Source of the DNA: an uncultured Porphyromonadaceae bacterium
Lineage (GTDB): Bacteria > Bacteroidota > Bacteroidia > Bacteroidales > Muribaculaceae
Assembly: GCA_947175665.1 (NCBI GenBank)
Contig: CAMWNR010000010.1
Span: 1 to 35,140, forward strand
Reading direction: 5' to 3'
Length of the DNA stretch: 35,140 nt
Below the pieces are notes generated by a model, which searched no databases, had not been told where the DNA came from, and saw nothing but the letters and a program-made list of their open reading frames with translations. This document shows positions 6,285 through 32,555 of this stretch, piece by piece (within the stretch, counting starts at the first letter, position 1; the number at the start of each line of letters is the position of its first letter). A program made the translations under genes and the position numbers.

Positions 6285-8291
6285 ATGAAAAAGTTTTTAC
6301 TCGCATTTGGTGTTTTGGCCACTTTGACTGCCTCTGCAGCCAATCAGTACGGAAGTAAGCCTGCCGAAGGCTTTCTTAACACTGCCGACAATTCCGGTGG
6401 TATCGCAAGTATCGAGATTGATGTTAACAATGCTGTAATCAATCGCAACTGCACTCTGTATGCAACTCTTAGTAAGGGTGGTCAAATCATTAAGGCTATC
6501 CCCGCCAGCAACACAAGAATGGTTTATACCTACCAAGGATTTGACCGTACAGAGGTAGGTACTCCCCATATCACCTTCTACAACGAAGCAAATTCTCCCG
6601 CTTCTACAGGTGGTAATTTCGTAGTTACTATCCCCTCTAACTTCTTTACCGTAAATGGCAAGCCCAATGCTCGCCTTGAGTATTCATTTACTGTTGAGGG
6701 TGACGGTGTGACTAAAGTCGTAACTCCTACCCCCGGTGCAAGCATCACTGAGTTTACTACACTCAGCATCAACTTCGAGAATGCTTCTCGCATACAATAT
6801 ACCGGTGGTACTACAGGCATCAATATCGAATATGCTAACCCTGAAAATGACGAGGAGACTCTCTTTATCTATCCTAAGGATGTAACTGTCGATGGTACTG
6901 TTCTTACCGCTACTTTCGACCCCTATACCGTAGAAGGTCAGATATTCGTAAACGTTAACTCCGGTGTTGTCCGCTATCAGGAAATCGGTGAATCCGGCAC
7001 TAAGACTATGGGTCAACAACTTTACCGTTACTACATCGCTCCCGCTATGGACAACGGTTTCACCCTCACTCCCGGTCCTGCCACTGTAACTTCACTCAAG
7101 CCCTATAAGAGCGGCATGGTTACCAGCACTGTAAACGGTTCTACTTACGAAATCATGCGCAGCGATTACTTCGATCTTAAACTCCCCGAAGGTTATACTT
7201 GTGGCAATGTTGCCGCTCGTCGCGTAGTTCTCGCTCAGGAGCAGGCTGACGGTACTTTGAAAAATACTTCCAAGTACTTCAACAACTGGGCTGCTAACTC
7301 TACTAAAGACGCTTATACTCTCTACCTCACCGGTGATGAGAATACTGAAGTAAAACTCGCTCCCGGTAAGTACTGGCTCGTTATCCCGAGCAGTTCTTTC
7401 TATGTAATGGCTCCCGGTGCTACTGCCGCTGCTCCTTACGCTACTGAACTTAAGTTCGGTCCTTGGATCGTAGAAGGCGAACCCGCTCAGTACACTGTAA
7501 CTCCCTCTGAAGAACCTGTTGACGCTATCTCTACTATCCAGATTAAATTTGATGAAGGTTCTGACGTAGTAGTTAATAAAATCGGTTGGTTTACTATCAT
7601 GGAAGATGTAGTGGAATATGACGTTCGCGGTGTTGCTGACGGCAACGTAGTAACTCTCACTATCTCTCCCGCTCTCACTACTCCCGGTGAATACAAACTC
7701 ATCTCTGAGGCTTCTAATATCAAAGTTAACGGTGTAGATACTGCAGTATCTGCAACATTTACAGTTATCAAGAGTTTCATCACCGAACTCAATCTCCTCT
7801 GTAACGGCGAACCCGCACAAGGTGAGGTAGTAGAAGATGAAGACTACGGTAATGTTTGGGCTGTTTCAGTTCACACTCCCGCAAACTCTGACGTTGCTTC
7901 TGTGACTTTCGAACTTCCCCTCGGTTACGATGAAGTTTACACATTCGATTATGAAGTATCTACCGACAGACTCCTTGCTAACAAGCGTATCCCCGCTGAT
8001 GACATCCTTGCTGCCGGCTTCCAGCCCATTGCTAACAACACAATCGAAAACCTCAGCATCGGTACTCACTTCATCGGCTTCACTTACGGCTCTAACGGTG
8101 ACTTCCTCGTACCCTCTATGATGACTCTTACAGTGCTTAAGGGTGAGGACAACGAATCCACTGGTGTTAACGAAGTAGTTGCAGCAGAAGAGGCTGAATA
8201 CTACACTCTCCAGGGTGTAAAAGTTGCTAACCCCGAAAAAGGCATCTACATCAAGGTTGCCAACGGCAAAGCAGTTAAAGTAAACCTCTAA
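6285..8291 (+). CDS. large secreted repeat protein with sorting-type C-terminal tail
   Basis: A 668-residue exported protein of unknown function. The N-terminus 'MKKFLLAFGVLATLTASA' is a signal peptide. The body is beta-rich and built from several similar units, each opening with a phrase like 'VTPTPGASITEFTTLSINF' (about 147), 'TLTPGPATVTSLKP' (about 260) or 'VTPSEEPVDAISTIQIKF' (about 405), suggesting tandem Ig-like domains. The C-terminus 'YYTLQGVKV...GIYIKVANGKAVKV' resembles the short tail on many secreted proteins of Prevotella/Muribaculaceae and is reminiscent of type IX secretion C-terminal domains; that link is inferred. Codon choice is noticeably uniform (ctc, tac, act), consistent with high expression. 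It has its own promoter and terminator, so it is a separate unit from the pigment cluster. Confidence 0.8.
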   Translation: MKKFLLAFGVLATLTASAANQYGSKPAEGFLNTADNSGGIASIEIDVNNAVINRNCTLYATLSKGGQIIKAIPASNTRMVYTYQGFDRTEVGTPHITFYNEANSPASTGGNFVVTIPSNFFTVNGKPNARLEYSFTVEGDGVTKVVTPTPGASITEFTTLSINFENASRIQYTGGTTGINIEYANPENDEETLFIYPKDVTVDGTVLTATFDPYTVEGQIFVNVNSGVVRYQEIGESGTKTMGQQLYRYYIAPAMDNGFTLTPGPATVTSLKPYKSGMVTSTVNGSTYEIMRSDYFDLKLPEGYTCGNVAARRVVLAQEQADGTLKNTSKYFNNWAANSTKDAYTLYLTGDENTEVKLAPGKYWLVIPSSSFYVMAPGATAAAPYATELKFGPWIVEGEPAQYTVTPSEEPVDAISTIQIKFDEGSDVVVNKIGWFTIMEDVVEYDVRGVADGNVVTLTISPALTTPGEYKLISEASNIKVNGVDTAVSATFTVIKSFITELNLLCNGEPAQGEVVEDEDYGNVWAVSVHTPANSDVASVTFELPLGYDEVYTFDYEVSTDRLLANKRIPADDILAAGFQPIANNTIENLSIGTHFIGFTYGSNGDFLVPSMMTLTVLKGEDNESTGVNEVVAAEEAEYYTLQGVKVANPEKGIYIKVANGKAVKVNL

Positions 8292-8311
8292 TCCCCATAC
8301 ACAACAATATC

Positions 8312-8342
8312 AAAAGCGCTCCGGTGACGGAGCGCTTTTTTT
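8312..8342 (+). terminator. rho-independent terminator
   Basis: A perfect 12-bp stem AAAAGCGCTCCG / CGGAGCGCTTTT (8312-8323 and 8328-8339) with loop GTGA, followed by further T residues to 8342. It lies 20 nt after the stop of the secreted repeat protein and should isolate it from the downstream cluster. Confidence 0.93.
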
Positions 8343-8409
8343 ATTACCCATCCCCCTCCCCTCAATCTCTAATGTCGCGAAGCATTCCTCCTTGTAAATA
8401 TCGAGACTC

Positions 8410-8521
8410 ATCCCGCATAGCGGGATTTCAGCATAGGCACGTATCCGGCAAAGCCGAAGGGTTTGCCGGGTGCGTGTATATTGTAGTTCCCACTCCGAAA
8501 ACTGTGCCGCGTTAGCGGTAC
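8410..8521. repeat. cluster of three hairpins in intergenic DNA
   Basis: Three stems occur in about 110 nt: ATCCCGC-ata-GCGGGAT (8410-8426, perfect); CACGTATCCGGCAAA paired with TTTGCCGGGTGCGTG (8438-8452 and 8462-8476, about 15 bp with two non-Watson-Crick positions); and GTGCCGC-gtta-GCGGTAC (8504-8521, one G.U). The hairpins resemble REP-like palindromes or a structured non-coding RNA. No open frame crosses the area convincingly and no promoter is obvious. Confidence 0.55.
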
Positions 8522-8646
8522 TTCTAAACGCGGAATAATATATGGAATTTGACTATTTTTGACCGGAAAATCTACTCCCGAACGCAATTACAAAAACCGA
8601 TATTACCCTCTGATTCAGTGCGACTTAACTAAAATAAATATCCAAA

Positions 8647-8668
8647 TCTCTTAGGAAGAGATTTGGAT
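8647..8668 (+). repeat. left inverted repeat of a putative invertible promoter (IRL)
   Basis: The 22 nt at 8647-8668 are the exact reverse complement of 8828-8849, checked base by base; the match stops at both ends. IRL is also the right part of a larger 29-nt near-palindrome (8640-8668: 13-nt arms around the asymmetric centre AGG). Confidence 0.85.
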
Positions 8669-8827
8669 GAGATGGCTATATAATTGATTATCACGAGAAT
8701 TAGAAATGAATAAAAATGTGTATTTTAAAACTATATTTGTTAAATTCCTACAAAGGTTATGAATTTGGATGAAAATTACTCATTAAAAATTGCACACTTA
8801 GAGGAATTTAGTTACTTTTGCAAAAAT
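8669..8827 (+). promoter_or_regulatory. putative phase-variable invertible promoter segment, ON orientation
   Basis: The 159-bp segment between the inverted repeats contains a promoter pointing at the ammonia-lyase gene. Its -7 element TACTTTTG (8813-8820) fits TAnnTTTG, with ATTG at 8789-8792 as a -33 element and a 20-nt spacer, within the normal 19-21 nt range. A second perfect -7 word, TATATTTG (8732-8739), has no convincing -33. Transcription would begin about 8827, at the edge of the right repeat. Inversion would turn the promoter away from the cluster toward gene-free DNA. This is the layout of Bacteroides invertible promoters; no recombinase gene is in the window. Confidence 0.7.
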
Positions 8828-8849
8828 ATCCAAATCTCTTCCTAAGAGA
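8828..8849 (+). repeat. right inverted repeat of a putative invertible promoter (IRR)
   Basis: Exact 22-nt reverse complement of IRL, ending 8 nt before the ATG at 8858. If transcription starts near 8827 this repeat forms most of the mRNA leader and lies next to the ribosome-binding region, whose purine run AAGAGA is part of the repeat. Confidence 0.85.
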
Positions 8850-8857
8850 CAATAACT

Positions 8858-10378
8858 ATGAATCTTTCTGAAGTATACGAAATATTATTCCATAACCGTG
8901 AGTTAAACTTGCCCGATAAGGAGATGGATAACGTAGCTAAGTGCTATGACTTCCTCAAGGAGTTTGCTCACGACAAAGTCATTTATGGTATCAATACCGG
9001 TTTCGGTCCTATGGCTCAATGGCGCGTGGAGGATAATCATCTCAAAGAACTTCAATATAATATTATCCGCAGTCACGCCACAGGAGCCGGCGAACCGCTT
9101 TCTGACATCCGTGTAAAAGCCGCAATGATAGCCCGTATAGGTACCTTTCTGCAGGCACGTTCGGGTGTCAATCCGCATGTGATTACACTACTTCAGAGTT
9201 TTGTTAATCATGGTGTGTACCCCTTTATCCCTTGTCACGGTAGTGTCGGAGCAAGCGGTGATCTTGTGCAACTTGCCCACATTGCCCTTACTCTTATAGG
9301 GGAAGGGAAAGTACATTATAAAGGTGAATGGAGACCGGCGGGCGAAGTTCTTAACTTACTCGGTCTCACCCCGATGGGTATTGATGTGCGCGAGGGACTC
9401 TCGGTCACAAACGGTACCTCGGTAATGACCGGTATCTCCATAGTCAACCAGTACTATGCCGAGAATCTTTTGAAATATGCCACTATAGCAGGTGCATGGA
9501 TTAATGAGATCGCTGATTCGTTTGACGACTATATGTCGGTCGAAGAGAATTCCTGTCGCCGCCAACCCGGTCAGCAGGTAATAGCACGCTGGTTGCGCGA
9601 GGTATCGGCAGGTAGCCGACATCTGCAGAAACGGGAACACGAACTTTATGACCCCTCTCGCAATCGCGATGCCTATTTCGAACATAAGGTTCAGGCTTAT
9701 TACTCACTGAGATGTATCCCACAGATCTACGGCCCTGTTTACGATACCCTTTCAAACGCTGCCGAGGTGCTGCAAAACGAACTCAACTCAGCGTGTGATA
9801 ACCCCATCGTTGATTACGAAGCAGGTAACATATATCATGGTGGCAACTTCCACGGTGACTATATTTCACTGGAGGCTGATAAGGTTAAAATCGCTATGGT
9901 AAGGGTAGCAATGACAGCCGAGCGCCAACTTAACTATCTCTTCCATGATCGTATAAACGGTATCCTACCCCCATTCCTGAATCTTGGCAAACTCGGTCTT
10001 AACTATGGTATGCAGGCATGTCAGTTTACAGCCACATCCACTACCGCGGAGTGTCAGACACTGGCCATGCCGAACTATGTACACAGTATTCCCAATAATA
10101 ACGACAATCAGGATATAGTCAGCATGGGTACCAACTCTGCCCTGCTATGCGGCAAAGTTATAGATAACGCTTATCAGGTTATGTCTATATTATATATAGC
10201 CTTGGCACAAGCCACCGACTGTCTCTCTCTGGCCGATAAACTCTCACCGGCCACTCGCCGTCAATATGACGCCATTCGGGCAATCTGTCCGAAATTTATC
10301 GATGACACCCCCTTTTACGAAGAAGTGGCTGAAACCGAAAAATATTTACGAACAAATATTATCGACTATCTAAGGTAA
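8858..10378 (+). CDS. HAL/TAL-family aromatic amino acid (or histidine) ammonia-lyase
   Basis: A cytoplasmic MIO-dependent lyase that removes ammonia from an amino acid to give the aryl-acrylic acid. The self-forming MIO cofactor triad is A132-S133-G134 in 'GSVGASGDLVQLAHIALTL'; the catalytic Tyr lies in 'YGINTGFGPM'. 506 residues is the normal length for bacterial HAL/TAL. As the first gene of an aryl polyene cluster with no hutU, hutI or ftcD nearby, its likely job is to supply 4-coumarate or cinnamate (from Tyr or Phe) as starter unit. The selectivity pair is S72-H73, as in histidine ammonia-lyases rather than His-Leu as in the classical Rhodobacter TAL, so the substrate is not certain. 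It begins 8 nt after the right inverted repeat. Confidence 0.85.
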   Translation: MNLSEVYEILFHNRELNLPDKEMDNVAKCYDFLKEFAHDKVIYGINTGFGPMAQWRVEDNHLKELQYNIIRSHATGAGEPLSDIRVKAAMIARIGTFLQARSGVNPHVITLLQSFVNHGVYPFIPCHGSVGASGDLVQLAHIALTLIGEGKVHYKGEWRPAGEVLNLLGLTPMGIDVREGLSVTNGTSVMTGISIVNQYYAENLLKYATIAGAWINEIADSFDDYMSVEENSCRRQPGQQVIARWLREVSAGSRHLQKREHELYDPSRNRDAYFEHKVQAYYSLRCIPQIYGPVYDTLSNAAEVLQNELNSACDNPIVDYEAGNIYHGGNFHGDYISLEADKVKIAMVRVAMTAERQLNYLFHDRINGILPPFLNLGKLGLNYGMQACQFTATSTTAECQTLAMPNYVHSIPNNNDNQDIVSMGTNSALLCGKVIDNAYQVMSILYIALAQATDCLSLADKLSPATRRQYDAIRAICPKFIDDTPFYEEVAETEKYLRTNIIDYLR

Positions 10379-10570: not shown

Positions 10571-11299
10571 ATGAAATACGCATTAGTGACAGGATCTTCG
10601 CGTGGTATCGGTGCGGCCGTGGCCAAACGTCTGGCCGCAGCCGGTTACGCCATATTGCTTAATTACCGCTCTAATGAAGAGGCGGCACTTAAGGTTATGG
10701 AGGAGATTTCAAGCAATGGCGGCACAGCATCTCTGCTACCCTTTGACGTGGCTGACGAAGAAGCCGTAGACTCAGCAATCTGCAAATGGGAAAGCGAGAA
10801 TCCTGATGATTATATATCCGTATTGGTCAACAATGCCGGTGTGCGCGATGACAACCTTATGATTTTCATGAATTCCGGTCAATGGCATAAAGTTATCAAC
10901 ACTACCCTCGATGGCTTCTTTTATGCAAGCCGCAGGGTGCTTAAAGGTATGTTAACCCATCGCTACGGACGGATTATAAATATTGCATCTCTCTCGGGTC
11001 TTAAGGGGTTACCCGGACAGACCAATTATTCAGCGGCCAAGGGCGCGCTGATTAGTGCTACCAAGGCACTCGCTCAGGAAGTGGCTCCGCGCAAAGTTAC
11101 GGTCAATGCCGTCGCGCCCGGTTATATAAAATCCGATATGACAAAGGATCTTGATGAAGCCTCCCTGAAAAAGCAGGTGCCTCTGAATAGATTCGGATTA
11201 CCCGAAGAAGTCGCGGCCCTTGTATCCTTTCTTGCATCGGACGAGGCGGCCTATATCACAGGTGAAACTATTTCTATAAACGGAGGATTATACTCATGA
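10571..11299 (+). CDS. FabG-like 3-oxoacyl-ACP reductase (SDR), polyene ketoreductase
   Basis: A 242-residue short-chain dehydrogenase that reduces the beta-keto group of the growing acyl-ACP with NADPH. It has the Rossmann motif 'TGSSRGIGAAVA' at the N-terminus, 'NNAG' in the middle, the catalytic Ser in 'IASLSG', and the YxxxK pair in 'YSAAKGAL'. The 'TGETISINGGLYS' end is the typical FabG C-terminus. Its stop overlaps the next ketosynthase start by 4 nt (ATGA), so the two are translationally coupled; this placement points to a dedicated polyene ketoreductase and not the housekeeping FabG. ATG 10571 immediately follows TTACTTACTTA. Confidence 0.88.
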   Translation: MKYALVTGSSRGIGAAVAKRLAAAGYAILLNYRSNEEAALKVMEEISSNGGTASLLPFDVADEEAVDSAICKWESENPDDYISVLVNNAGVRDDNLMIFMNSGQWHKVINTTLDGFFYASRRVLKGMLTHRYGRIINIASLSGLKGLPGQTNYSAAKGALISATKALAQEVAPRKVTVNAVAPGYIKSDMTKDLDEASLKKQVPLNRFGLPEEVAALVSFLASDEAAYITGETISINGGLYS

Positions 11300-12522
11300 G
11301 CAGAAGAGTGGTTATCACCGGCATAGGTATATGGTCTTGTATCGGCACTGATGTCGACACAGTGGCTCGATCGCTATATGAGGGTAAATCCGGAATAGGA
11401 ATCGAAGAGGCGCGTCTTGAGTACGGTTACCGCTCTCCCCTCACCGGAATCGTACCCAAACCTCAACTCAAGGGGTTACTCGACCGCCGTATGCGCACCG
11501 GTATGTCGGAAGAGGCTGAATATGCATATATGGCTGCCCGACAGGCTTTGCAGCAGGCCGGCATTGACAGCGAGTATCTGAACACCAATGAGGTAGGTAT
11601 TATATTTGGCAACGATTCTTCTTCACGAGCAGTGATAGAAGCCCACGAAATCATGAAGGAGAAACGCGACTCTGCATTGATCGGATCGGGGTCGATATTC
11701 AAGTCCATGAACTCCACTGTCAATATGAACCTTTCTACCATCTTCAAGATTAAAGGTATCAACATGACTGTGAGTGCGGCCTGCGCAAGCGGTTCACACT
11801 CGATCGGGTTAGGATACCTGATGATTAAGCAGGGTCTGCAGGATATGATACTCACCGGTGGCGCGCAAGAGACCAACTATTACTCCATGTCATCGTTTGA
11901 TGCCCTGGGTACATTTTCTAACCGTACCGATAATCCCGCAGCGGCATCCAGACCATTTGACCGTGACCGTGACGGATTGATACCGAGCGGCGGAGCCGCG
12001 GCTCTGGTACTTGAAGAGTATGAGCATGCTGTAGCACGTGGTGCCAACATTCTCGCTGAGGTTGTAGGCTACGGCTTCTCCTCAAACGGTGGAGGCATCT
12101 CCCAACCGAGCGATGAAGGTTCTGTCGTAGCCATGACCAGAGCCCTTGAGGATGCCGGCATCTTCCCCGAGGAAGTAGACTATGTAAATGCGCATGCCAC
12201 CTCCACTCCGCAGGGGGATGCTTTTGAAGCCAAAGCATTGAGCAGACTCTTTGCGGGTAAAAAAGCACTTATCAGCAGTACCAAATCTATGACAGGTCAT
12301 GAGTGCTGGATGGCAGGTGCGAGCGAAATCGTATATTCCGTCCTTATGATGCAACACGGCTTTGCCGCTCCTAACATCAATCTGGAAAATCCTGATGAGA
12401 ACGCAGCGGGACTGAATCTGATAACCAAGGCTGTTGCCACCCCGATCAAAACCATCCTCTCCAACTCTTTCGGTTTCGGAGGTACCAATTCCGCTTTAGT
12501 TCTAAAAAAGCCGGAAGATTAA
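11296..12522 (+). CDS. beta-ketoacyl-ACP synthase (FabF-like), stand-alone ketosynthase
   Basis: A 408-residue condensing enzyme that adds malonyl-derived C2 units to an acyl-ACP. The catalytic set is complete: C163 in 'VSAACASGS', H300 in 'NAHATSTPQGD', K330 and H335 in 'TKSMTGH'. Of the three ketosynthases here it is the only one without a C-terminal extension, and it pairs with the ketoreductase through a 4-nt overlap. A good ribosome-binding site (GGAGGA) lies 8 nt before the ATG. By analogy with aryl polyene systems it may act as a homodimer in starter elongation; this role is inferred. Confidence 0.88.
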   Translation: MSRRVVITGIGIWSCIGTDVDTVARSLYEGKSGIGIEEARLEYGYRSPLTGIVPKPQLKGLLDRRMRTGMSEEAEYAYMAARQALQQAGIDSEYLNTNEVGIIFGNDSSSRAVIEAHEIMKEKRDSALIGSGSIFKSMNSTVNMNLSTIFKIKGINMTVSAACASGSHSIGLGYLMIKQGLQDMILTGGAQETNYYSMSSFDALGTFSNRTDNPAAASRPFDRDRDGLIPSGGAAALVLEEYEHAVARGANILAEVVGYGFSSNGGGISQPSDEGSVVAMTRALEDAGIFPEEVDYVNAHATSTPQGDAFEAKALSRLFAGKKALISSTKSMTGHECWMAGASEIVYSVLMMQHGFAAPNINLENPDENAAGLNLITKAVATPIKTILSNSFGFGGTNSALVLKKPED

Positions 12523-13817: not shown

Positions 13818-14915
13818 ATGAATCTTTTTCCCGAACTCCTTAAGAAATATACTAAGGAAAATCTAAACGCACGCGATGCCCAGCGCCTCGCGGAGTTTAT
13901 CGCTTTCGGCCCGGTAATTTTCCAGACTGCCCGTATCATGCTCAAACGCGGTATTCTGGATATGATTCGCAACACCCGGGGCGGGCTTACCATTGAGGAA
14001 ATCGCCGAGCAGAGCGGCCTTTCCTTATATGCTGCCAAATGCCTTATCGAGGCTTCTCTCTGTATCGGCTTGATTATAGTCGACCCTGACTCAGACAGAT
14101 TCACCATCTCTAAAACAGGATGGTTTCTTATAAATGACCCCGCCACAAGAGTAAACATTGATTTTAACCATGATGTAAATTATCTCGGTTGGTTTGATCT
14201 TGAGGAGGCATTGACAACCGGCACACCGGCCGGTCTTAAAACGCTCGGCGACTGGCCAACTATTTATGAGGGTCTCTCTTCACTTCCCGATCAGATACGC
14301 CATAGTTGGTTTGGATTTGATCATTTTTATTCTGACCATTCGTTTGATGAGGCTTTGGATATCGTGTTCTCGTATCATCCCCGCACTCTTCTGGATGTAG
14401 GTGGCAATACCGGACGATGGGCTTTGAAATGTGTGGAGTATAATCCGGAGGTGAAAATTACAATCCTTGACCTGCCGCAGCAGATAGGCCTTATGCTGGA
14501 TAATATCAAAGGTAAACCCGGTGCTGACAGGATCGAAGGGATGGGGGTAAACCTCCTCGATCCCGACACCCCCATGCCTGAGGGGAAACGTTTTGATGCT
14601 ATCTGGATGAGTCAGTTTCTGGACTGCTTTAGCGAAGATGAGATAGTAAGCATACTCACCCGCGCACGCAAGGTGATGGATGCCGATTCAAGACTCTTCA
14701 TTATGGAGACTCTCTGGGACAGACAGCGATTCGAACCGGCCGCTCTATGTCTCACCCTAACCTCTCTCTACTTTACAGCACTTGCCAACGGCAACAGTAA
14801 GATGTATCACTCTGATGATATGATAAGGCTTATTGACAAAGCCGGTCTTAAGGTGGAGAAGATCCACGATCATCTCGGTCAGGGTCACAGTATTATTGTG
14901 TGCCGCATGGCGTAA
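13818..14915 (+). CDS. SAM-dependent O-methyltransferase (plant-OMT/ASMT-like fold)
   Basis: A 365-residue class I methyltransferase with an N-terminal winged-helix dimerisation domain (about 30-110: 'LTIEEIAEQSGLSLYAAKCLIEASLCIGLI') and a C-terminal Rossmann domain with SAM motif I 'LLDVGGNTGRWALKC' and acidic 'ITILDLPQQ' after strand 2. This two-domain form is typical of small-molecule O-methyltransferases. In an aryl polyene pathway it would methylate the phenolic head group or a ring position; aryl polyenes from other phyla often carry methyl or methoxy aryl ends. The gene is followed by TAAGTAAG and TTACTTACTTA before the first carrier protein. Confidence 0.83.
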   Translation: MNLFPELLKKYTKENLNARDAQRLAEFIAFGPVIFQTARIMLKRGILDMIRNTRGGLTIEEIAEQSGLSLYAAKCLIEASLCIGLIIVDPDSDRFTISKTGWFLINDPATRVNIDFNHDVNYLGWFDLEEALTTGTPAGLKTLGDWPTIYEGLSSLPDQIRHSWFGFDHFYSDHSFDEALDIVFSYHPRTLLDVGGNTGRWALKCVEYNPEVKITILDLPQQIGLMLDNIKGKPGADRIEGMGVNLLDPDTPMPEGKRFDAIWMSQFLDCFSEDEIVSILTRARKVMDADSRLFIMETLWDRQRFEPAALCLTLTSLYFTALANGNSKMYHSDDMIRLIDKAGLKVEKIHDHLGQGHSIIVCRMA

Positions 14916-17137: not shown

Positions 17138-18928
17138 ATGATCACCATACTGTCACATAACATCACCTCTCCGTTAGGTTTTACCTCGCAAGAAAACTTC
17201 GAGGCGATTCTTGACGGCAAGTCGGCCCTTAGACGCAATATCTCCTGCTTTGGTCTTCCGGAGAAGGTATGTGCTTCACTTTTCGACCGCGATACAATAG
17301 AATCAAAGGTTGCCGCACTGGATATCGACTCCTCGCGTTATACTTTTTTCGAAAAGATTGCGATACTCTCGGCCACCGATGCTATTGCTTCGGCAGGTAT
17401 TGATCCCTCTTCTGATGATGTGATATTTATTATATCTTCTACCAAGGGTAATGTCGATTATCTGGAGTTTGATGAGTATGATGAGAGGTGCTTCCTGAGC
17501 GGCTCTGCAAAAAAAATAGCAGATTATTTCCGCAACCCCAATATTCCTGTTACTGTTTCTAACGCATGTATCTCCGGGTTATCAGCACAAATTCTGGCCG
17601 AACGTTTGCTTATCTCCGGTCAATACCGCACCGCTGTTGTAATAGGAGCCGATACACTCTCTAAATTTATTATCTCGGGCTTTCAGTCTTTTATGGCTTT
17701 GAGTGCCACTGAGTGTCGTCCTTATGATAAGTGGCGCAACGGTTTGAATCTTGGTGAGGCCGCGGCAACATTAGTGTTCTCTCGCCTTGATGACAATAAG
17801 AGTGCCAATTACAGGTGGCATCTGGCATCAACTTCTTCTCACAATGATGCCAATCATATCTCGGGCCCCTCCCGCACAGGTCAAGGCGCTTATCTCGTAT
17901 TAAAGGATCTCATTAAAGATTGTGACATTGATGATATAGCCTTTATCAATGCTCACGGTACTTCTACCCTTTATAATGATGAGATGGAGTCTATCGCTAT
18001 ACATCGTGCCGGATTGGATAAAGTTCCTGTCAATGGCCTTAAGGGATTTTATGGTCATACCCTCGGTGCAGCCGGTATAGTAGAAACTATTTTATCAACT
18101 ATGGCTCTTGATAAGGGGTTAATACTACCTACGCGGGGATACTCCGAACCGGGAACATCCCGCGAACTTAATCTGGATTCCAAACTCCGCAAAACCAATG
18201 GCCGCACGTTTATCAAACTCCTCTCGGGATTCGGAGGTTCGAATGCCGGTGTCCGTTTCATCAAAACTCTTTCTCCCGATTCCTCTGATAGCACTGAAGC
18301 GTCTGCATCTCAAGCCGAAAAAGGATTGAAACGTATTGACAATGCAGCGATAAATCGTGACGGTAACGATACAACCGGTATAAATACAAGAGTCATTGAC
18401 GAGATTATCATCACTCCTACCGGCATTAAACACGGTGACCGGAGTGAGGATTGGAATGTGGATTCTCTTACCGAATTATATCGGGAAAAGTGTGGCAATT
18501 ATCCTAAGTTCTTTAAGATGGATAATCTATGCAAGTTGGGTTTTATAGCGTCGGAGATCATTCTTTCTGATTTTCCAAAAGAGGAGAAAGAGAAGTGCGC
18601 CGTTATCCTGTTTAATCGGGATGGTTCGCTTAACACCGATCGTAACTATATGAAAACAATATGCGATACGACCAACTTCTTCCCAAGCCCCGCTACTTTT
18701 GTATACACCTTGGCTAATATAGTTACCGGTGAAATTGCTATCAGACATAAAATATTCGGTGAGACATCTTTTTATATTCTGGATAAGGAAGAGGCCGAAC
18801 TGCAGAATAAAATTGTAACCTCGACCTTCTTAACCTCCTCCCCCAAGATGATTCTGACCGGTTGGGTGGAATATGAAAACTGCCACGATTATTATGCTCA
18901 TTTTCAACTCATAAAACCGACCACATAA
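17138..18928 (+). CDS. ketosynthase fused to a degenerate thiolase-fold domain
   Basis: 596 residues in two parts. Residues 1-385 are a beta-ketoacyl-ACP synthase with a complete active site: C144 ('VSNACISGL'), H273 ('NAHGTSTLYND'), K302 and H307 ('KGFYGHTLGAAG'). A Ser/Thr/Asp-rich linker (about 385-418) leads to a 180-residue C-terminal domain with 'FKMDNLCKLGFIASE', 'CAVILFNRDGSLNTDRNY' and 'IVTGEIAIRHKIFGETSFYI'. This looks like the N-terminal half of a thiolase/KS fold that has lost the nucleophilic Cys (the corresponding 'VYTLANI' has none). In related Bacteroidales clusters I would expect such a piece as a separate small protein, so this appears to be a fusion, possibly a chain-length partner in cis. 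Confidence 0.82.
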   Translation: MITILSHNITSPLGFTSQENFEAILDGKSALRRNISCFGLPEKVCASLFDRDTIESKVAALDIDSSRYTFFEKIAILSATDAIASAGIDPSSDDVIFIISSTKGNVDYLEFDEYDERCFLSGSAKKIADYFRNPNIPVTVSNACISGLSAQILAERLLISGQYRTAVVIGADTLSKFIISGFQSFMALSATECRPYDKWRNGLNLGEAAATLVFSRLDDNKSANYRWHLASTSSHNDANHISGPSRTGQGAYLVLKDLIKDCDIDDIAFINAHGTSTLYNDEMESIAIHRAGLDKVPVNGLKGFYGHTLGAAGIVETILSTMALDKGLILPTRGYSEPGTSRELNLDSKLRKTNGRTFIKLLSGFGGSNAGVRFIKTLSPDSSDSTEASASQAEKGLKRIDNAAINRDGNDTTGINTRVIDEIIITPTGIKHGDRSEDWNVDSLTELYREKCGNYPKFFKMDNLCKLGFIASEIILSDFPKEEKEKCAVILFNRDGSLNTDRNYMKTICDTTNFFPSPATFVYTLANIVTGEIAIRHKIFGETSFYILDKEEAELQNKIVTSTFLTSSPKMILTGWVEYENCHDYYAHFQLIKPTT

Positions 18929-22193: not shown

Positions 22194-22838
22194 ATGAAAC
22201 ATATCTTTTATATATTGATTATCACAATTTTCTCGGTATGTAATCCTATTATCGGTGTTGCCGTAACTCCGGTTATCGGATCTGAACTTACCAACACTGT
22301 CACTGCGCTCAACAAGGCTTCGGCTCAGTTGAAAAGTATGGAGTGTGAGTTTGTACAGACCAAGAACCTCAAAATGCTCAAGGATAAAATGGTATCTAAA
22401 GGTAAAATGTATTATGCCGCCCCCGATAAGTTACGCTGGGAGTATACCAATCCTTATCAGTACCTCTTTATCTTTAACGGCTCTAAAGTCTTTATAAAAA
22501 ACAAGGGTACTCAAAATGTAATAGATACCAAATCCAACAAAATCTTTAAAGAGGTGGCTCGCATCATGATGCAGACCGTGACCGGAAAAGCATTGTCCGA
22601 TTCTAACGACTTTGTTATCTCTGTCTCTAAAGATGCCACGACCTATTTTGTCTCGATGACTCCTAAAAAGAGGGATTTGAAACAACTTTTCCAGTCGGTG
22701 ACTCTATCCTTTAACCGCAATTCAAAATTGATAGACTGTATACGTATCAATGAGAAGAATGGAGACTACACCGTGATTAAACTTACTAATTTAAAATCTA
22801 ACAGATCTCTTGATGCAAAGTTATTCAGCATTCCTTAG
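22194..22838 (+). CDS. LolA-like periplasmic carrier protein
   Basis: 214 residues with an N-terminal signal peptide (hydrophobic 'IFYILIITIFSVCNPIIGVAV') and the LolA fold signature: 'SMECEFVQTKNLKML', 'SKGKMYYAAPDKLRWEYTNPYQYLFIFNG'. LolA shuttles lipoproteins across the periplasm; cluster-linked paralogues are a regular component of aryl polyene loci and are thought to carry the hydrophobic pigment. Its last 26 nt overlap the start of the next gene, indicating tight coupling. This is probably not the housekeeping LolA because of its location. Confidence 0.85.
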   Translation: MKHIFYILIITIFSVCNPIIGVAVTPVIGSELTNTVTALNKASAQLKSMECEFVQTKNLKMLKDKMVSKGKMYYAAPDKLRWEYTNPYQYLFIFNGSKVFIKNKGTQNVIDTKSNKIFKEVARIMMQTVTGKALSDSNDFVISVSKDATTYFVSMTPKKRDLKQLFQSVTLSFNRNSKLIDCIRINEKNGDYTVIKLTNLKSNRSLDAKLFSIP

Positions 22839-23355: not shown

Positions 23356-23722
23356 TCTTTTCGATATAATCTCTCCTTATGATTCCGATATTTTCCGCAT
23401 CAGGCTTAACCCTGACTGCATAATATACCGTGCGCATTTCCCTGAATTGCCTATTACTCCGGGAGTATGCATTTTACAGATAGGTGCTGAGATTCTGGAG
23501 CGTAAGTTTGACACTCCTCTTGAAATCACCAAGGTCAGAAACGCCAAGTTTCTTAAAGTCATCAATCCCGTTGATACGCCTGAACTTACTTATCGGTTTA
23601 CATCTCTGACAATTGTTGATACACATAATATTTCGACTTCTCTTTTAGTAGAAGCCGATGGGGTGGTATATTCCAAATTATCCTTTACTCTAACTCCTGC
23701 ATCTCAAATTGAACTTAAGTAA
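23339..23722 (+). CDS. FabZ-like hot-dog 3-hydroxyacyl-ACP dehydratase (second)
   Basis: 127 residues. 'RAHFPELPITPGVCILQ' keeps the classical FabA/FabZ active-site loop (HFPxxPxxPGV with the catalytic His). It therefore looks like the catalytic FabZ-type dehydratase, complementing the earlier ApeP-type one. The ATG at 23339 is taken as start (a GTG 3 nt earlier is also open). The 17-nt overlap with the previous gene and the TAATG junction with the next gene show strict operon structure. Confidence 0.82.
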   Translation: MKLINNLFDIISPYDSDIFRIRLNPDCIIYRAHFPELPITPGVCILQIGAEILERKFDTPLEITKVRNAKFLKVINPVDTPELTYRFTSLTIVDTHNISTSLLVEADGVVYSKLSFTLTPASQIELK

Positions 23723-25734
23723 TGGAAAAGATCGTTACAGCATCCTTACGCTCGGTGATGAGAGATAACCGCATCTGCGTTATAGTACCTACATATAATA
23801 ATGCAGGTACACTTGAGGGTGTGATCAATGATATTTCCCGGTATTGCGATGACACCATAGTAGTCAACGATGGGAGTACGGATGCTACCACCGACATCCT
23901 CGCTCGGTTCGGAGATACTATATCTGTAGTATCCTATCCGGCCAATCGTGGCAAGGGGTATGCCTTGCGCGAAGGTTTCAGATATGCAATCTCCAAGGGG
24001 TTTGATTACGCTATCACAATTGATTCTGACGGTCAGCATTTCGCATCAGATATACCGGCTTTTGTAAAGGCTGTTTTAGAGTATCCGGATTCTATTATTG
24101 TCGGGGAGAGGGATCTCTCGAATGTAGATATTAACCGTAAGAGTTCGTTTGCCAATAAGTTTTCCAACTTCTGGTTTCACCTTCAGACCGGCAAATCTCT
24201 GCAAGATACCCAGACAGGATACCGGGCTTACCCTCTCCGCAATCTTCACGGTCTCTCGATGCTCACTTCGCGCTATGAGGCGGAGTTGATGCTGCTTGTG
24301 ATGGCCGCATGGAATGGCGTTCGTATCCACCCTATCCCTATCCGGGTTTACTACCCGCCTCAGTCCGAACGGGTGTCTCATTTCCGACCGGCCAAAGATT
24401 TTACCCGCATAAGTATTCTCAATACTTTTCTTTGTATCGGTGCTTTGATATATGGATTACCGATGAGGATTTATACTGCGATCAGGGATAAAAAAGTCTT
24501 TAATCGCGAATGCAGGTTCATGACCCGCAAAAAGGGTGAAAAGAAGGAGGCCGCTACTACTCTCGACCGCCTGTTTCGCTCCCTTTACGGACTCTCTTTC
24601 TTCCTGTTCTGGTCTTTATTTATCTTCGCTCCTTATACTTATCTCTCTTTCAGGTTTGGTAAACCTACCGAACAAAAACGTTTGCGTCTGCACCGCAGAC
24701 TACAGCGTTTATCAAAATATATCGTGACTCATTATCCGGGTGGTAAAACAGTAAATGAGAACGTAAATCTTAAGGAGTTTGATAAACCGGCCATGATCGT
24801 CTGCAATCATCAATCTCAACTTGATCTCCCTCTGCTGATGGCTCTGCATCCGAAGTTGATCTTCCTTACTAATGATTGGGTATGGCATTCCCCTTTCTTC
24901 GGAAGTCTGATACGGCTGGCTGAGTTTCTCCCGGTTTCGGCGGGAATTGAAAAAATAATACCTCATCTGAGCCAATTGGTGGAGAGGGGCTATTCGATTG
25001 TAGTTTTTCCGGAGGGTACAAGATCTGCTGACTGCCGTATACGACGTTTCCATCAGGGGGCTTTTTACATTGCTTCGCAACTTAACCTCGATATTATACC
25101 GGCTGTAATACATGGCGCGGGGCATTATCTCCCTAAGAATGATTTCATGTTCCGTCGCGGTTTGGTTACCTTACGTTTGCTTGACCGCATCCCTCAGTCC
25201 GTTCTGCGCGATTTACCTCTTATGAAACAGGCTGCAATGCTGCGCAAAAAAATTTCGGAGGCTTATTCCGAATTGGAGCATCACAAGGAAAAAGCCCGTT
25301 ATTTCACACCTCTTATCTCTTATAAGTATGCCTGGAGGGGGTGGAATTGCGTGGCGCTCTATAAATCGTTTATGAAGTGCTTTGACAAGTTTGAAGATAC
25401 AATAAATGCTGAGTCACCGGTCGGTATTAATCCGTATCCTACGGGCAACATTGCCATTCTCAACAGCGGTATCGGTGTTTTTGCACTTTATTACGCTTTG
25501 GTAAATAAAGGGGTGCAGGTATACGCTTTTGAGGCGGATATATATAAGCACCGTATTGCTGTTTCCACTCCGGGGCTACCCTCAAATCTGCATTTTATTC
25601 ATGCCGTATTTCCTGAGGATATCAAGGTTGTCGGGACTGATATAGAGAGTTGGGATAAGGTGATACGGTTTGCCGGACCACTTAAAGCGGATAATAATAA
25701 CAGTTCAGTTATCGAGTATGGGGAATGCTGTTGA
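23722..25734 (+). CDS. glycosyltransferase family 2 - PlsC acyltransferase fusion with Rossmann-like tail
   Basis: 670 residues with three parts. (a) GT2 domain, about 10-230: 'VIVPTYNNAGTLEGVI', 'VVNDGSTDATTDI' and the metal-binding D101-S-D103 in 'TIDSDGQHF'. (b) After a membrane segment near 290-315, a PlsC-type acyltransferase with the HX4D motif H363-QSQL-D368 and FPEGTRS (429-435). (c) From about 520 a tail with 'NIAILNSGIGVFALYYALV' and 'VYAFEADIYKHR', resembling a degenerate SAM-methyltransferase Rossmann half. GT-acyltransferase fusions occur in aryl polyene clusters and probably glycosylate and acylate the polyene for anchoring. It shares one base (TAATG) with the previous gene. Confidence 0.85.
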   Translation: MEKIVTASLRSVMRDNRICVIVPTYNNAGTLEGVINDISRYCDDTIVVNDGSTDATTDILARFGDTISVVSYPANRGKGYALREGFRYAISKGFDYAITIDSDGQHFASDIPAFVKAVLEYPDSIIVGERDLSNVDINRKSSFANKFSNFWFHLQTGKSLQDTQTGYRAYPLRNLHGLSMLTSRYEAELMLLVMAAWNGVRIHPIPIRVYYPPQSERVSHFRPAKDFTRISILNTFLCIGALIYGLPMRIYTAIRDKKVFNRECRFMTRKKGEKKEAATTLDRLFRSLYGLSFFLFWSLFIFAPYTYLSFRFGKPTEQKRLRLHRRLQRLSKYIVTHYPGGKTVNENVNLKEFDKPAMIVCNHQSQLDLPLLMALHPKLIFLTNDWVWHSPFFGSLIRLAEFLPVSAGIEKIIPHLSQLVERGYSIVVFPEGTRSADCRIRRFHQGAFYIASQLNLDIIPAVIHGAGHYLPKNDFMFRRGLVTLRLLDRIPQSVLRDLPLMKQAAMLRKKISEAYSELEHHKEKARYFTPLISYKYAWRGWNCVALYKSFMKCFDKFEDTINAESPVGINPYPTGNIAILNSGIGVFALYYALVNKGVQVYAFEADIYKHRIAVSTPGLPSNLHFIHAVFPEDIKVVGTDIESWDKVIRFAGPLKADNNNSSVIEYGECC

Positions 25735-28325: not shown

Positions 28326-29618
28326 ATGATAACTGACGATATAGAATTTAAATCGGCCGGAGAGATTAAGATTTATCAGGATTCTCGCCTGCGGGAGGCT
28401 CTGCAATATCTTAATACAAAGTCTCCTTTTTACAAGAGGATGTTTGCCGAGCATGGTATAGATATAAAGAATATCAAGTGTATCGAGGATCTTTCCTCTC
28501 TCCCCTTTACCGAGAAGAAGGATTTGCAATTACATAATGATGATTTTCTATGCGTACCGCGTGAGAAGATCGTAGATTATATCACTACCTCGGGTACTCT
28601 GGGTGATCCGGTTACTTTCGGCTGTACCGAAAAAGATCTGCAGCGCCTTGCTTATAATGAGAAGAAGTCTTTTGACTGTGCCGGTCTCGTACCGGGCAAT
28701 ATAGTTCAGTTAATGACAACTCTCGACAAGAGATTTATGGCCGGTCTGGCCTATTTCCTCGGTATCAGAGAGTTGGGAGCGAGTGTAATCCGTGTAGGCA
28801 ACGGTATGCCTGAACTGCAGTGGGATACAATTTCGCGTCTTAATCCGGATACTCTAATGTGTGTACCCTCTTTCATACTCCGGCTTATCGAGTATGCTGA
28901 GCAAAACGGTATAGATTATCGCAATTCGAGTGTGAAGAGGATCATCGGTATCGGTGAGGGACTGAGAAATCAGGATTTTTCACTCAATCTTCTCGGCAAC
29001 CGCATTAAGGAGAAATGGGATGTGGAACTCTTTGCTACATATTCTTCCACTGAAATGGGGGCAACCTTTTCGGAGTGCACTTACGGTTGCGGCGGTCATG
29101 TGCATCCTGAACTGATCATCGTGGAGATTATAGGTGATGATAACCTCCCTGTTAAAGATGGTGAGACCGGAGAGGTAGTGGTTACCACTCTCGGTGTGGA
29201 GGGGATGCCTTTATTGCGCTTCCGTACCGGTGATATCAGCAGCAAAGTGTCTGAGAAGTGTAAGTGCGGCCGAAGTTCGTATCGTCTTACCCCCTTGATA
29301 GGACGCAAAAATAATATGCTTAAACTTAAGGGAACTACCATTTACCCGCCCGCTATCAATGATGTATTGGATAATACACCATATATAGTCAATTATCTTG
29401 TCGAAGTGCGCAACAGTTTTGCAGGTACCGATGAGGTGATAGTTAAGGCGGGAGTTTCCGTGGCCCAACCTTTTGATATGATCAAGGATCTTAAAGACCG
29501 CTTCAGGTCACGTATCCGTGTGGCGCCTATTGTGGAGATTATGTCGCCCGATGATATTGCAAAGATCATTAATCCGGGCAATAATCGCAAACCTGTTAAA
29601 TTTATCGATCACCGTTAA
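28326..29618 (+). CDS. phenylacetate-CoA ligase-like adenylate-forming enzyme
   Basis: 430 residues of the ANL superfamily, PaaK-like branch. The phosphate-binding motif is 'TTSGTLGDPVTF', 'YSSTEMGATFSEC' is the A5-type adenine motif, and 'LRFRTGDISSKVSEKCKCG' is the A7-A8 region with the PaaK-type Cys-rich KCKCG turn. Typical PaaK length is about 430. In this pathway it should activate the aryl acid from the ammonia-lyase to the CoA or ACP thioester. Being separated from the lyase by 18 kb is unusual but the functional link is clear. It lies 18 nt before the exporter gene. Confidence 0.86.
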   Translation: MITDDIEFKSAGEIKIYQDSRLREALQYLNTKSPFYKRMFAEHGIDIKNIKCIEDLSSLPFTEKKDLQLHNDDFLCVPREKIVDYITTSGTLGDPVTFGCTEKDLQRLAYNEKKSFDCAGLVPGNIVQLMTTLDKRFMAGLAYFLGIRELGASVIRVGNGMPELQWDTISRLNPDTLMCVPSFILRLIEYAEQNGIDYRNSSVKRIIGIGEGLRNQDFSLNLLGNRIKEKWDVELFATYSSTEMGATFSECTYGCGGHVHPELIIVEIIGDDNLPVKDGETGEVVVTTLGVEGMPLLRFRTGDISSKVSEKCKCGRSSYRLTPLIGRKNNMLKLKGTTIYPPAINDVLDNTPYIVNYLVEVRNSFAGTDEVIVKAGVSVAQPFDMIKDLKDRFRSRIRVAPIVEIMSPDDIAKIINPGNNRKPVKFIDHR

Positions 29619-29636: not shown

Positions 29637-32555
29637 ATGACCGGATTGGTTCTGAGTATATACAGATTTTTTAATCGGTATCCTCTGATTGGAGTTACTG
29701 CATTCATCATTACCACTCTCGCACTTGTAGGGTCGGTGATGACTCTTCACTACAATGAGGATATTTCGGATTTTCTTCCGCTCGATGAGGAGAATAGCGA
29801 CGCTCTGGATGTTTACCGCCGTGTGTCGGGCGCGGATAAAATCATTGCTATGGTGATGTCAGCAGATACTGATTCGGTTGATGCATCAGTATTGGCCGCG
29901 GGCATAGAGTCTCTCTCAGATAATATTTCGGCTCTCGACTCTGTAGGCGCTATACGCTCTATGATGCAGAGAGTCGATATGGAGAATATGATGGATATTG
30001 CCGATGAGGTCTACGCCAATATCCCTTATTTCCTTACCGAGAAGGATTACTGTACCATTGATTCCCTCCTCTCTACCCCCGATTATGTGGCACAGCGGAT
30101 GAGAGCGAATCGTGAAATGCTCTTATTACCTACAGGCAACTTGATAACCCAAAATATATCGCGCGATCCGCTGAATCTATTCTCCCATGTGCTTAACCGT
30201 TTGTCTTCAGGTAGCGTAGGTATGGATTATGACACTTATGACGGTTACATTCTCACCCCCGACAGAAAACGGGGATTGGTGATTATCGAGTCTTCTTATG
30301 GTGCTAATGAATCGGAGCATAATACTGACCTTACCGGCCTGCTTAATGCCGCGGCCGACAGCGTTGCTAAAGCGTATCCACAATTACAGGTGAGGTATGT
30401 CGGAGGACCTGTTATCGCGGTTGAGAATGCATCTCGTATTAAGAAAGATTCTATTTTGGCTATCACTATTGCCGGTCTGCTGATAGTGGCGCTGTTGATT
30501 TATGTATTCCGCAGTGTGCGCAGCATATTGCTTATAATTATTTCGGTGGCGTGGGGATGGTTGTTTGCAATAGGAACCATCGCGATCTTTTATGATTCAA
30601 TATCTATAATTGTAATCGGTATTGCTTCGATTATACTCGGCATTGCTGTCAATTATCCGCTTCATCTTATCGATCACCTTAAAAGCACCCCCGATATTAA
30701 ATCGTGTCTGCGCGAAATTGTGGCTCCGCTCGCTGTAGGCAATATCACTACCGTGGGGGCTTTTTTATGTCTGGTCCCCCTTAATGCCCCGGCGTTGCAT
30801 GACCTCGGTCTGTTCGGTTCGCTACTACTTGTGGGTACTATCATTTTCGTGTTGCTGTTTCTACCTCATCTGGTCAGGAGCAGACGATTTAAGAATGGGG
30901 AGGCTGTAAATAAAACACCTGATTTAATATCGCGTATCTCAGAAATCTCTATTGAGAAGAACCGATGGATTATATACACAATGTTTATCCTTACTGCTGT
31001 TTTTGCAGTGTTTGCTTTTCACACCGAGTTTGATTCTGATATGCGGCATATAAATTATATGTCTGATCAGCAGCGCGAGGATCTGGAGTACCTCTCTACA
31101 CTTACATCCGCGAGGGGCAATGATAGTATACATCAATCTGCCACACCATCCGAACAGATTTTTATAGTCAGTAAAAATACTGACTACGACAAGGCAGTAT
31201 TACAATTTGAAAATCTGGTGCCGGTTTTATCGAAATTGCAGAGCCAAGGTAAAGTAACCTTTACCAATCATGTCGTTGATTTCATACATTCTTCCGAGTC
31301 TCAGGAGTCTGATCTGAATAGATGGAATCAGTTTTTAGAGGCTCATCCCGATATTTTATCTTCTGTCTCTTCAGCCGGTGCCGCCGCGGGATTTAGTGAT
31401 GATGCTTTTATGGAATTTTCGGATCTCTTGAGTGATTCTTTTTCTACTAAACCTATTGAGTCTTTTGAACAGATTGGCTCAACGGTTTTCGCATCCAATC
31501 TCCTCACAGACCTTGAGAGTGGTAATAAGATGTTTGTGGTTTCACTTAATGTGAATCAAGAGGATCTTGATGAGGTTATGGACACTCTGCATGATGCCAC
31601 TGCTACGTTAACAGCCAATCGTAGTACTGACTTGAATACCTCCGGCTCTGACCGTCTGTTTGCCTTTGATGTAAAGGGTATGAATACCTCCATCACCAAT
31701 TCACTCTCTGATGATTTTAATTATATCGGCGTAGCCTGCAGTCTGATAGTATTCATTTTCCTCTGGATTTCGCTCGGCAGCCTTGAACTGGCTATTATCT
31801 CGTTTATCCCTATGGCTGTGAGTTGGATATGGATTTTAGGTATAATGGGTATCGCCGGTATTAAGTTTAATATCGTCAATATTATCCTTGCAACATTTAT
31901 ATTCGGTCAGGGTGATGATTATACTATCTTTATGACCGAGGGGCTTACTTACGAATTCGCCTATCGCAAGAAGATGCTCGCTTCATTTAAGAATTCCATT
32001 ATCATCTCGGCCTTGATTATGTTCATCGGCATCGGCACTCTCATAATTGCCGAGCATCCGGCTATGAAATCTTTGGGCGAGGTGACAGTGGTAGGTATGC
32101 TCTCGGTGGTACTGATGGCCTACTTCTTCCCACCTTTTATCTTTAATTGGCTGGTTAGAAATCCTGACGGTTCGCTGCGACGGAGTCCAATAACTATTTC
32201 CGGTTTTCTAAGTAAGTTATCTGGATACGGTAAGTATCATCGTAATCCTGATTCGGAAATTTTAAACCTTGCTTTCAGTCGATACCTGTATAAAGGGAGA
32301 GAGATCGAGCGTCGTGCCCGGAAAAATATTAACCGGATTGCGCAGTCCGGGATTCCTGTCATACCGGCGGAGACGGAGGAATACGAATTTATCTGTGATC
32401 TTGATTCTCAGGGTGAGATCGCTTTGATTACAGCGCTCAAATACCCCGATTGTAAAATTAAAGTAATTCTGCCTACCGACCTGCAATATGAGTTACTCAG
32501 AGGTTGCGCACAGGATTTGGTTAGCAATCTGACTATATCTCACCGAAAAGCATGA
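29637..32555 (+). CDS. MMPL/RND-family exporter with C-terminal Rossmann-like tail
   Basis: 972 residues. It has a first membrane helix near the N-terminus, a large periplasmic loop (about 40-270), then helices ('ITIAGLLIVALLIYVF', 'IVIGIASIILGIAVNYPLH') and a repeat of that arrangement with the second periplasmic loop (about 450-690) and helices to about 840, containing 'FGQGDDYTIFM', the acidic proton-relay site typical of MMPL/RND proteins. The C-terminal 110 residues after the last helix are cytoplasmic and look like an additional domain. It is the likely pigment (or pigment-lipid) transporter of the inner membrane, working with the LolA-like carrier. Confidence 0.87.
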   Translation: MTGLVLSIYRFFNRYPLIGVTAFIITTLALVGSVMTLHYNEDISDFLPLDEENSDALDVYRRVSGADKIIAMVMSADTDSVDASVLAAGIESLSDNISALDSVGAIRSMMQRVDMENMMDIADEVYANIPYFLTEKDYCTIDSLLSTPDYVAQRMRANREMLLLPTGNLITQNISRDPLNLFSHVLNRLSSGSVGMDYDTYDGYILTPDRKRGLVIIESSYGANESEHNTDLTGLLNAAADSVAKAYPQLQVRYVGGPVIAVENASRIKKDSILAITIAGLLIVALLIYVFRSVRSILLIIISVAWGWLFAIGTIAIFYDSISIIVIGIASIILGIAVNYPLHLIDHLKSTPDIKSCLREIVAPLAVGNITTVGAFLCLVPLNAPALHDLGLFGSLLLVGTIIFVLLFLPHLVRSRRFKNGEAVNKTPDLISRISEISIEKNRWIIYTMFILTAVFAVFAFHTEFDSDMRHINYMSDQQREDLEYLSTLTSARGNDSIHQSATPSEQIFIVSKNTDYDKAVLQFENLVPVLSKLQSQGKVTFTNHVVDFIHSSESQESDLNRWNQFLEAHPDILSSVSSAGAAAGFSDDAFMEFSDLLSDSFSTKPIESFEQIGSTVFASNLLTDLESGNKMFVVSLNVNQEDLDEVMDTLHDATATLTANRSTDLNTSGSDRLFAFDVKGMNTSITNSLSDDFNYIGVACSLIVFIFLWISLGSLELAIISFIPMAVSWIWILGIMGIAGIKFNIVNIILATFIFGQGDDYTIFMTEGLTYEFAYRKKMLASFKNSIIISALIMFIGIGTLIIAEHPAMKSLGEVTVVGMLSVVLMAYFFPPFIFNWLVRNPDGSLRRSPITISGFLSKLSGYGKYHRNPDSEILNLAFSRYLYKGREIERRARKNINRIAQSGIPVIPAETEEYEFICDLDSQGEIALITALKYPDCKIKVILPTDLQYELLRGCAQDLVSNLTISHRKA

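Follow-up and report, generated by a model that had tools for sequence, protein, structure and literature searches.

The 159-bp segment in front of a pigment gene cluster in an uncultured Porphyromonadaceae bacterium is probably a promoter switch, predicted to be flipped by a tyrosine recombinase, with the flexirubin-type pigment operon behind it likely ON as the segment now lies and OFF when the segment is inverted. The stretch of DNA analysed, called the window throughout, is 35,140 nt long and comes from a draft genome of 2.33 Mb (166 contigs, 99.2% complete). The original prediction of a phase-variable invertible promoter is supported by a site family found across the genus, by linkage of a recombinase to these sites in relatives, by both orientations of a segment in one relative’s assembly and by the switches at flxA, the first gene of the cluster, whose promoter faces flxA in two cases and away from it in three. 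As the window’s two sites are members of a widespread site family with a predicted role in DNA flipping, it seems likely that cells toggle their pigment by promoter flipping.

Table 1. Features of the predicted switch and the pigment gene cluster, in window coordinates
Feature	Position	Strand	Description
Terminator-like hairpin	8312..8339	+	3' of upstream ORF 6285-8291
Left site	8640..8668		29-nt palindrome ATCCAAATCTCTT-AGG-AAGAGATTTGGAT; arm matching the right site is 8647-8668
Predicted invertible segment	8669..8827		159 nt
Bacteroides-type promoter	8789..8820	+	ATTG 8789-8792, 20 nt, TACTTTTG 8813-8820
Right site	8828..8849		ATCCAAATCTCTT-CCT-AAGAGA; centre is the inverse of that in the left site
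flxA, flexirubin-type tyrosine ammonia-lyase, first gene after the switch	8858..10378	+	NF053541, 811 bits, cut-off 700
flxB, SDR-family reductase	10571..11299	+	NF053542, 392 bits, cut-off 340
Ketosynthase-like gene	11296..12522	+	NCBIfam ketoacyl-ACP synthase models, all under cut-offs
Methyltransferase	13818..14915	+	PF21212, PF00891
Two more ketosynthase-like ORFs	17138-18928, 19487-21808	+	PF00109, PF02801
LolA2, flexirubin biosynthesis/transport	22194..22838	+	NF053544, 208 bits, cut-off 125
Glycosyltransferase-acyltransferase fusion	23722..25734	+	PF00535, PF01553
FlxY, putative acyl-CoA ligase	28326..29618	+	NF053551, 685 bits, cut-off 520
MMPL-family exporter	29637..32555	+	PF03176

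The repeats are as first described, 22 nt at 8647-8668 and 8828-8849 with 100% complementarity and 159 nt between the arms. They form the window’s only exact inverted repeat longer than 13 nt at a spacing of 60-600 nt; in 200 dinucleotide shuffles of the window the longest exact inverted pair at that spacing was 15 nt, compared with the 22 observed. The left site had been called a near-palindrome of 29 nt, and it is palindromic, but perfectly so (13+3+13). The core of the right site, absent from the earlier account, is also palindromic (TCTCTT CCT AAGAGA), and the core common to both sites is TCTCTT-NNN-AAGAGA, with AGG on the left and the inverse CCT on the right. The proposed promoter was confirmed and reads towards the lyase start at 8858. 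Two more TAnnTTTG words point at flxA, TATATTTG inside the segment and TATTTTTG to its left, and within 8601-8870 a TTG at 19-21 nt spacing accompanies the TACTTTTG word and no other. The locus thus has the form of an inverton, inverted repeats around an outward-facing promoter. A terminator and gene-free DNA had also been proposed to the left of the switch, and both are there: the terminator-like hairpin follows the upstream ORF on the + strand, 8292-8857 holds no ORF of at least 80 aa, and the stretch of about 300 nt from hairpin to switch is equally free of them.

By its sequence the cluster is of the flexirubin type of aryl polyene clusters. FlxA, FlxB, FlxY and LolA2 all exceed curated cut-offs in a scan of part of the cluster’s ORFs, and a Pfam scan placed an acyltransferase gene among its members. 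The region 8858-32555 may be read as a single transcript. In the description given for the Chitinophaga pinensis flexirubin cluster, a tyrosine ammonia-lyase and the FlxY ligase likewise start the aryl polyene (PMC3992019); the words “promoter” and “regulat-” are absent from the main text of that paper.

The window’s sites belong to a family characterised by TCTCTTNNNAAGAGA and TTTGGAT-type arms. Of 111 genomes of the genus, 60 contain the 22-nt site pattern with at most two mismatches; the reversed control gave 0 matches. An exact site scan of a genome contig collection matched 53 stretches, mostly titled Muribaculaceae, Porphyromonadaceae, Bacteroides or Bacteroidales, and a few titled Clostridium, Clostridia, Oscillibacter, Pseudoflavonifractor, Prevotella or Sulfurovum.

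The centres of the sites are inverted between partners. When pairs at 120-300 nt were seeded with TCTC-N7-GAGA, the 7-nt centre was exactly inverted in 67 of 71, one position off in none and different in four. Seeding with 12 arm positions gave inverted centres in 73 of 76 pairs (69 of 72 non-redundant ones); among the three exceptions, one in L231 spans two adjacent switches and one in L263 includes a site that has its own partner. These two seedings are the fair tests of inverted centres, as a set of 82 segments, the distinct ones in the loci fetched to that point, was picked by near-identical arms and its 82/82 inverted triplets are partly built in. Across these sites the outer arms stay constant and positions 6-10 vary. 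This fits a tyrosine recombinase with a short overlap, for which partners would match and other loci differ.

The segments themselves follow a rule of one promoter each. TAnnTTTG was found at exactly one outward edge in 74 of the 82 distinct segments, at both edges in 3 and at neither in 5, while among shuffled segments 4.9 had any outward edge TAnnTTTG. In 75 of 81 cases the start of the word precedes the core by 21-24 nt.

In one relative, G032, the two states of a segment can be compared directly. Two of its contigs, C53 and C96, are identical along 1203 of 1203 nt of flank, beyond which the segment runs one way in C53 and the other way in C96; they match over 1370 of 1371 nt once the segment is inverted, against 1203 nt as they stand. 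The promoter word of C53 faces away from a NusG-domain gene and that of C96 faces the NusG side; the C96 contig stops at the far site. The segment is therefore inverted between near-identical sequences, whether from one strain or two: the bin has an estimated contamination of 6%, so the two orientations may derive from two close strains. A shorter case was found in G015 (86/86 nt, 32 of them flank), and each of these two genomes shows a segment bounded by sites of this family in both orientations. Contig pairs from G036, G074, G034 and G013, compared as ON/OFF alleles, each scored higher after inversion and are not counted because their flanks diverge or match partly; G068 was uninformative. 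Six contigs (G070:C3, G122:C42, G068:C16, G015:C9, G001:C9 and G015:C126) have a site within about 45 nt of their start, which would be expected if the coexistence of both orientations makes assemblers break there.

The enzyme predicted to act on the sites was found beside them. Ten ORFs of about 400 aa next to site pairs were scanned, and nine were tyrosine recombinases (PF17293, PF13102, PF00589), with PF17293 under cut-off in one of the nine; as the ten had been chosen by size and position, the profile and locus counts that follow are less biased. The nine are 56-83% identical to the first one. Tyrosine recombinases use R, K, R, H and Y in catalysis, and these residues are at the expected places in the nine, with one R unreadable because of an ambiguous base. 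A profile built from the nine matched 81 of the 111 genomes at E<=1e-40. At E<=1e-100, a threshold set after the table had been viewed, 50 genomes had both sites and recombinase, 10 sites alone, 23 recombinase alone and 28 neither (p=4e-5); site-less genomes are counted here by the strict site, and the recombinase is present in 23 of these 51. The threshold leaves out eight genomes with weaker matches (G102, G106, G067, G111, G027, G128, G132 and G035); with these added the association gave p=0.003, and both p-values are only a guide as related genomes are not independent. Two unrelated recombinases showed no association with the sites (p=0.42 and 0.38). At the level of loci, 17 of 30 recombinase loci had a site pair and another 3 a single site near a contig end, compared with 1 of 19 control loci, which had been fetched for lyase paralogues. 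A search of 48 genomes with PF00589 at E<=1e-15 missed the recombinase family that neighbours the sites because its members score just 28-42 bits with PF00589. Three other candidates for the switch recombinase, all from the window’s own genome, were rejected: C82 (310 aa) and C28 (431 aa), which match in 16 and 27 of the 111 genomes with no association with sites, and C16, which is XerC-like.

The window’s own draft genome carries the core without mismatch six times, as three exact pairs on three contigs: the pigment pair (AGG/CCT), C12:9786/9961 (TGT/ACA) and C61:11444/11645 (ATT/AAT). All three have exactly inverted 15-nt cores, each with its own centre, and several distant site pairs in a single genome are what a tyrosine master-invertase system would show. 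In the C61 segment TAACTTTG points at a UpxY/NusG-like gene, so called on two model scores that are both under their cut-offs, followed by capsule-type genes. In the C12 segment TACATTTG points away from the operon to its left, three of whose genes have no Pfam match. Two promoters in this genome thus face an operon (pigment and capsule) and one (C12) faces away. The C12 operon is found at L032 558-5976, with the promoter word facing away in the present assembly. A 21-nt word, GTGCCGCGTTAGCGGTACTTC, lies at window 8504-8524 and again at L033 5783-5803 and 5850-5870; it adjoins both the pigment and the capsule switches of this genome and is perhaps a dispersed repeat.

Switches at flxA occur in other species. 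Within the genus, 11 of the 111 genomes encode FlxA of at least 79% identity; a family-wide sample of 397 genomes gave 31 with FlxA at E<=1e-150. We examined 32 flxA loci, leaving out G192, an FlxA genome for which no locus was obtained. Five have an intact switch of the window’s site family. The promoter faces flxA in the window and G070 and faces away in G016, G036 and Muribaculum caecicola, and in these last three the upstream stretch of 694 to 1,100 nt holds no TAnnTTTG towards flxA. A sixth, in G021, is a degraded pair with the promoter word between the pair and flxA. The other 26 loci have no pair of this site family, and TAnnTTTG faces flxA in 23 of them; for one of the 26, G128, the sequence covers only 259 nt upstream of the lyase motif. 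The five flxA segments do not align with one another and 0 of 15 comparisons clearly favoured one orientation, so orientation was judged from the promoter word alone. The window’s segment is known in one orientation, from the one genome of its species.

In one named strain, M. caecicola NM86_A22, the switch is accompanied by both the pigment genes and the recombinase. The recombinase (928-2223), which shares 82% identity with the family reference, is followed by an esterase, two tandem switches, a 184-aa ORF and flxA, and is thus in cis to the flxA switch. The tandem switches (3218/3405 and 3535/3721) have different centres and all three of their TAnnTTTG words face away. The flxA locus of G270 (4,515 nt) is found letter for letter in the NM86_A22 record; G270 belongs to the window’s family, and NCBI places M. 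caecicola in the Muribaculaceae. G036 and G070 also encode the recombinase, identical to the reference at 307 and 325 of 400 aligned positions respectively, and the profile matches G016 as well. On a tree of the 32 FlxA proteins the switch is scattered, requiring at least 5 changes, 2 of them forced by well-supported branches. This is no better than shuffled labels, 141 of 500 of which needed as few changes, and the scatter makes repeated gain or loss likely.

The flipping mechanism we propose draws on the anatomy of the sites and on what is known of tyrosine recombinases. The recombinase would bind the TCTCTT/AAGAGA arms of both sites and pair them, strand exchange would take place inside the shared variable centre, and the segment between would flip. 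If exchange occurs within the centre, only partners with matching centres should recombine, and the three switches of the window’s genome would therefore stay independent. With the segment oriented as in the window, transcripts would begin near 8826-8828 and extend through flxA and the pigment genes. After inversion, which we infer for the window’s own locus, the promoter would read left into DNA without an ORF of at least 80 aa, leaving the operon OFF.

The switch could be real and yet locked ON in the window’s strain through loss of the recombinase, which would make the pigment constitutive. The recombinase profile had 0 matches in this draft despite its 99.2% completeness, and the degraded pair and fixed promoter of G021 show that switches do decay. 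Against this, the three pairs of the genome keep exactly inverted 15-nt cores, and in the pigment pair the two arms match along 22 nt. Moreover, 46 of 48 genomes gave a high-scoring PF00589 match and this draft gave none, which suggests that recombinase genes may be unassembled, gaps being plausible in 166 contigs. We consider a locked switch unlikely, though not negligibly so.

The alternative raised with the original prediction, that the repeats are two operators for a dimeric regulator and that nothing inverts, gains something from the palindromic form of both cores. Operators, however, need no exactly inverted locus-specific centre (67/71), no adjoining recombinase and no constant segment with one promoter, and a related segment has been found inverted (G032). 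The operator idea leaves the inverted 7-nt centres, the recombinase linkage and the one-promoter-per-segment rule unexplained, and we regard it as very improbable. Still less probable is a role for the repeats in RNA, with the right site forming a short hairpin in the flxA 5' leader that tunes translation: the TCTCTT-CCT-AAGAGA core would fall in the predicted leader, but the matching left site and the evidence from the site family would go unexplained. The original suggestion of Mpi or a tyrosine recombinase stood in its second part, through the linkage to sites in relatives, and fell in its first, and there is scarcely any chance that a serine invertase of the Mpi type, which is described as flipping 13 regions in Bacteroides fragilis (PMC4747536), acts here, as PF00239 has 0 matches in the window’s genome and is present in 15 and absent from 46 of 61 genomes of the genus, while 36 of the same 61 carry sites.

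A promoter flipped by a tyrosine recombinase, the reading we prefer, has close parallels. In B. fragilis, Mpi and the tyrosine recombinases Tsr19 (BF2766) and Tsr0667 are described as acting on several promoters (PMC4747536). Compared by description, the present system resembles Tsr19 and Tsr0667 in that a tyrosine recombinase is tied to several distant TAnnTTTG promoter switches, but the targets given for those enzymes are polysaccharide/vesicle and SusC/SusD loci (PMC4747536) and here a pigment cluster. Recombinase and sites occur together in 50 of 60 site-bearing genomes (E<=1e-100) and in cis in M. caecicola; the window’s own draft gave no match to the recombinase profile. The B. fragilis capsule promoters under Mpi, as described, share the arrangement of inverted repeats around an outward promoter (PMC4747536), and the C61 pair of the window’s genome faces a UpxY/NusG-like gene and capsule-type genes; Mpi, however, is a serine recombinase. 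The invertible promoters described for Bacteroidales resistance genes are similar in that new cargo has captured a promoter switch and a local invertase (PMC8748976), though the cargo there is resistance on conjugative elements and here pigment synthesis. A survey of invertons describes integrases or recombinases near invertons and surface-related targets (PMC11892184).

The kind of switch is thus already known, and as far as our searches reach into the open-licence PMC literature the pigment target is not in print. Phase variation of an aryl polyene pigment had been expected to be new, and that literature contained no precedent: no phase-variable flexirubin or aryl polyene cluster, and no invertons with a biosynthetic gene cluster. 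One paper matching pigmentation phase variation and promoter inversion has Myxococcus colour variants as its subject.

We lean, with more doubt than over the switch itself, towards a phase-variation regulon spanning the Muribaculaceae, in which one tyrosine recombinase family acts on one arm sequence and a centre of about 5 bases serves as a locus-specific address that lets each promoter flip independently. The pigment cluster would have been wired into this regulon on at least two occasions, in one species along with a recombinase of its own and a tandem pair of switches, so that pigment in the gut is bet-hedged alongside capsule, fimbriae and restriction. Such a central address hints at a way for a single enzyme to flip many loci and leave the chromosome otherwise unrearranged, and the pairing of site and recombinase offers a simple predictor of phase-variable operons across a family of gut bacteria. 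The targets described for Bacteroidales promoter switches in the literature compared are surface structures, nutrient uptake, restriction and resistance genes; a switch-controlled pigment cluster would add secondary metabolism to this repertoire. With cells locked ON or OFF, one could then test the benefit that aryl polyenes bring in the gut.

The first genes beside other site pairs, listed by adjacency rather than by promoter direction gene by gene, include a type ISP restriction enzyme, a fimbrillin, a BspA-type repeat protein and a NusG/KOW protein. At L250 875-7289 a switch has the recombinase gene on one side and a 1645-aa type ISP restriction-modification gene on the other, and restriction itself may be phase-variable there. 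Besides those of M. caecicola (L237 3218-3735), tandem switches with different centres were seen at L231 4657-5158 and L246 4079-4584. Core-to-core distances group around 159, 171 and 182 nt; for the 61 pairs below 200 nt the best-fitting period is about 11.5 nt, which could come from helical phasing of a short synapse or from common ancestry.
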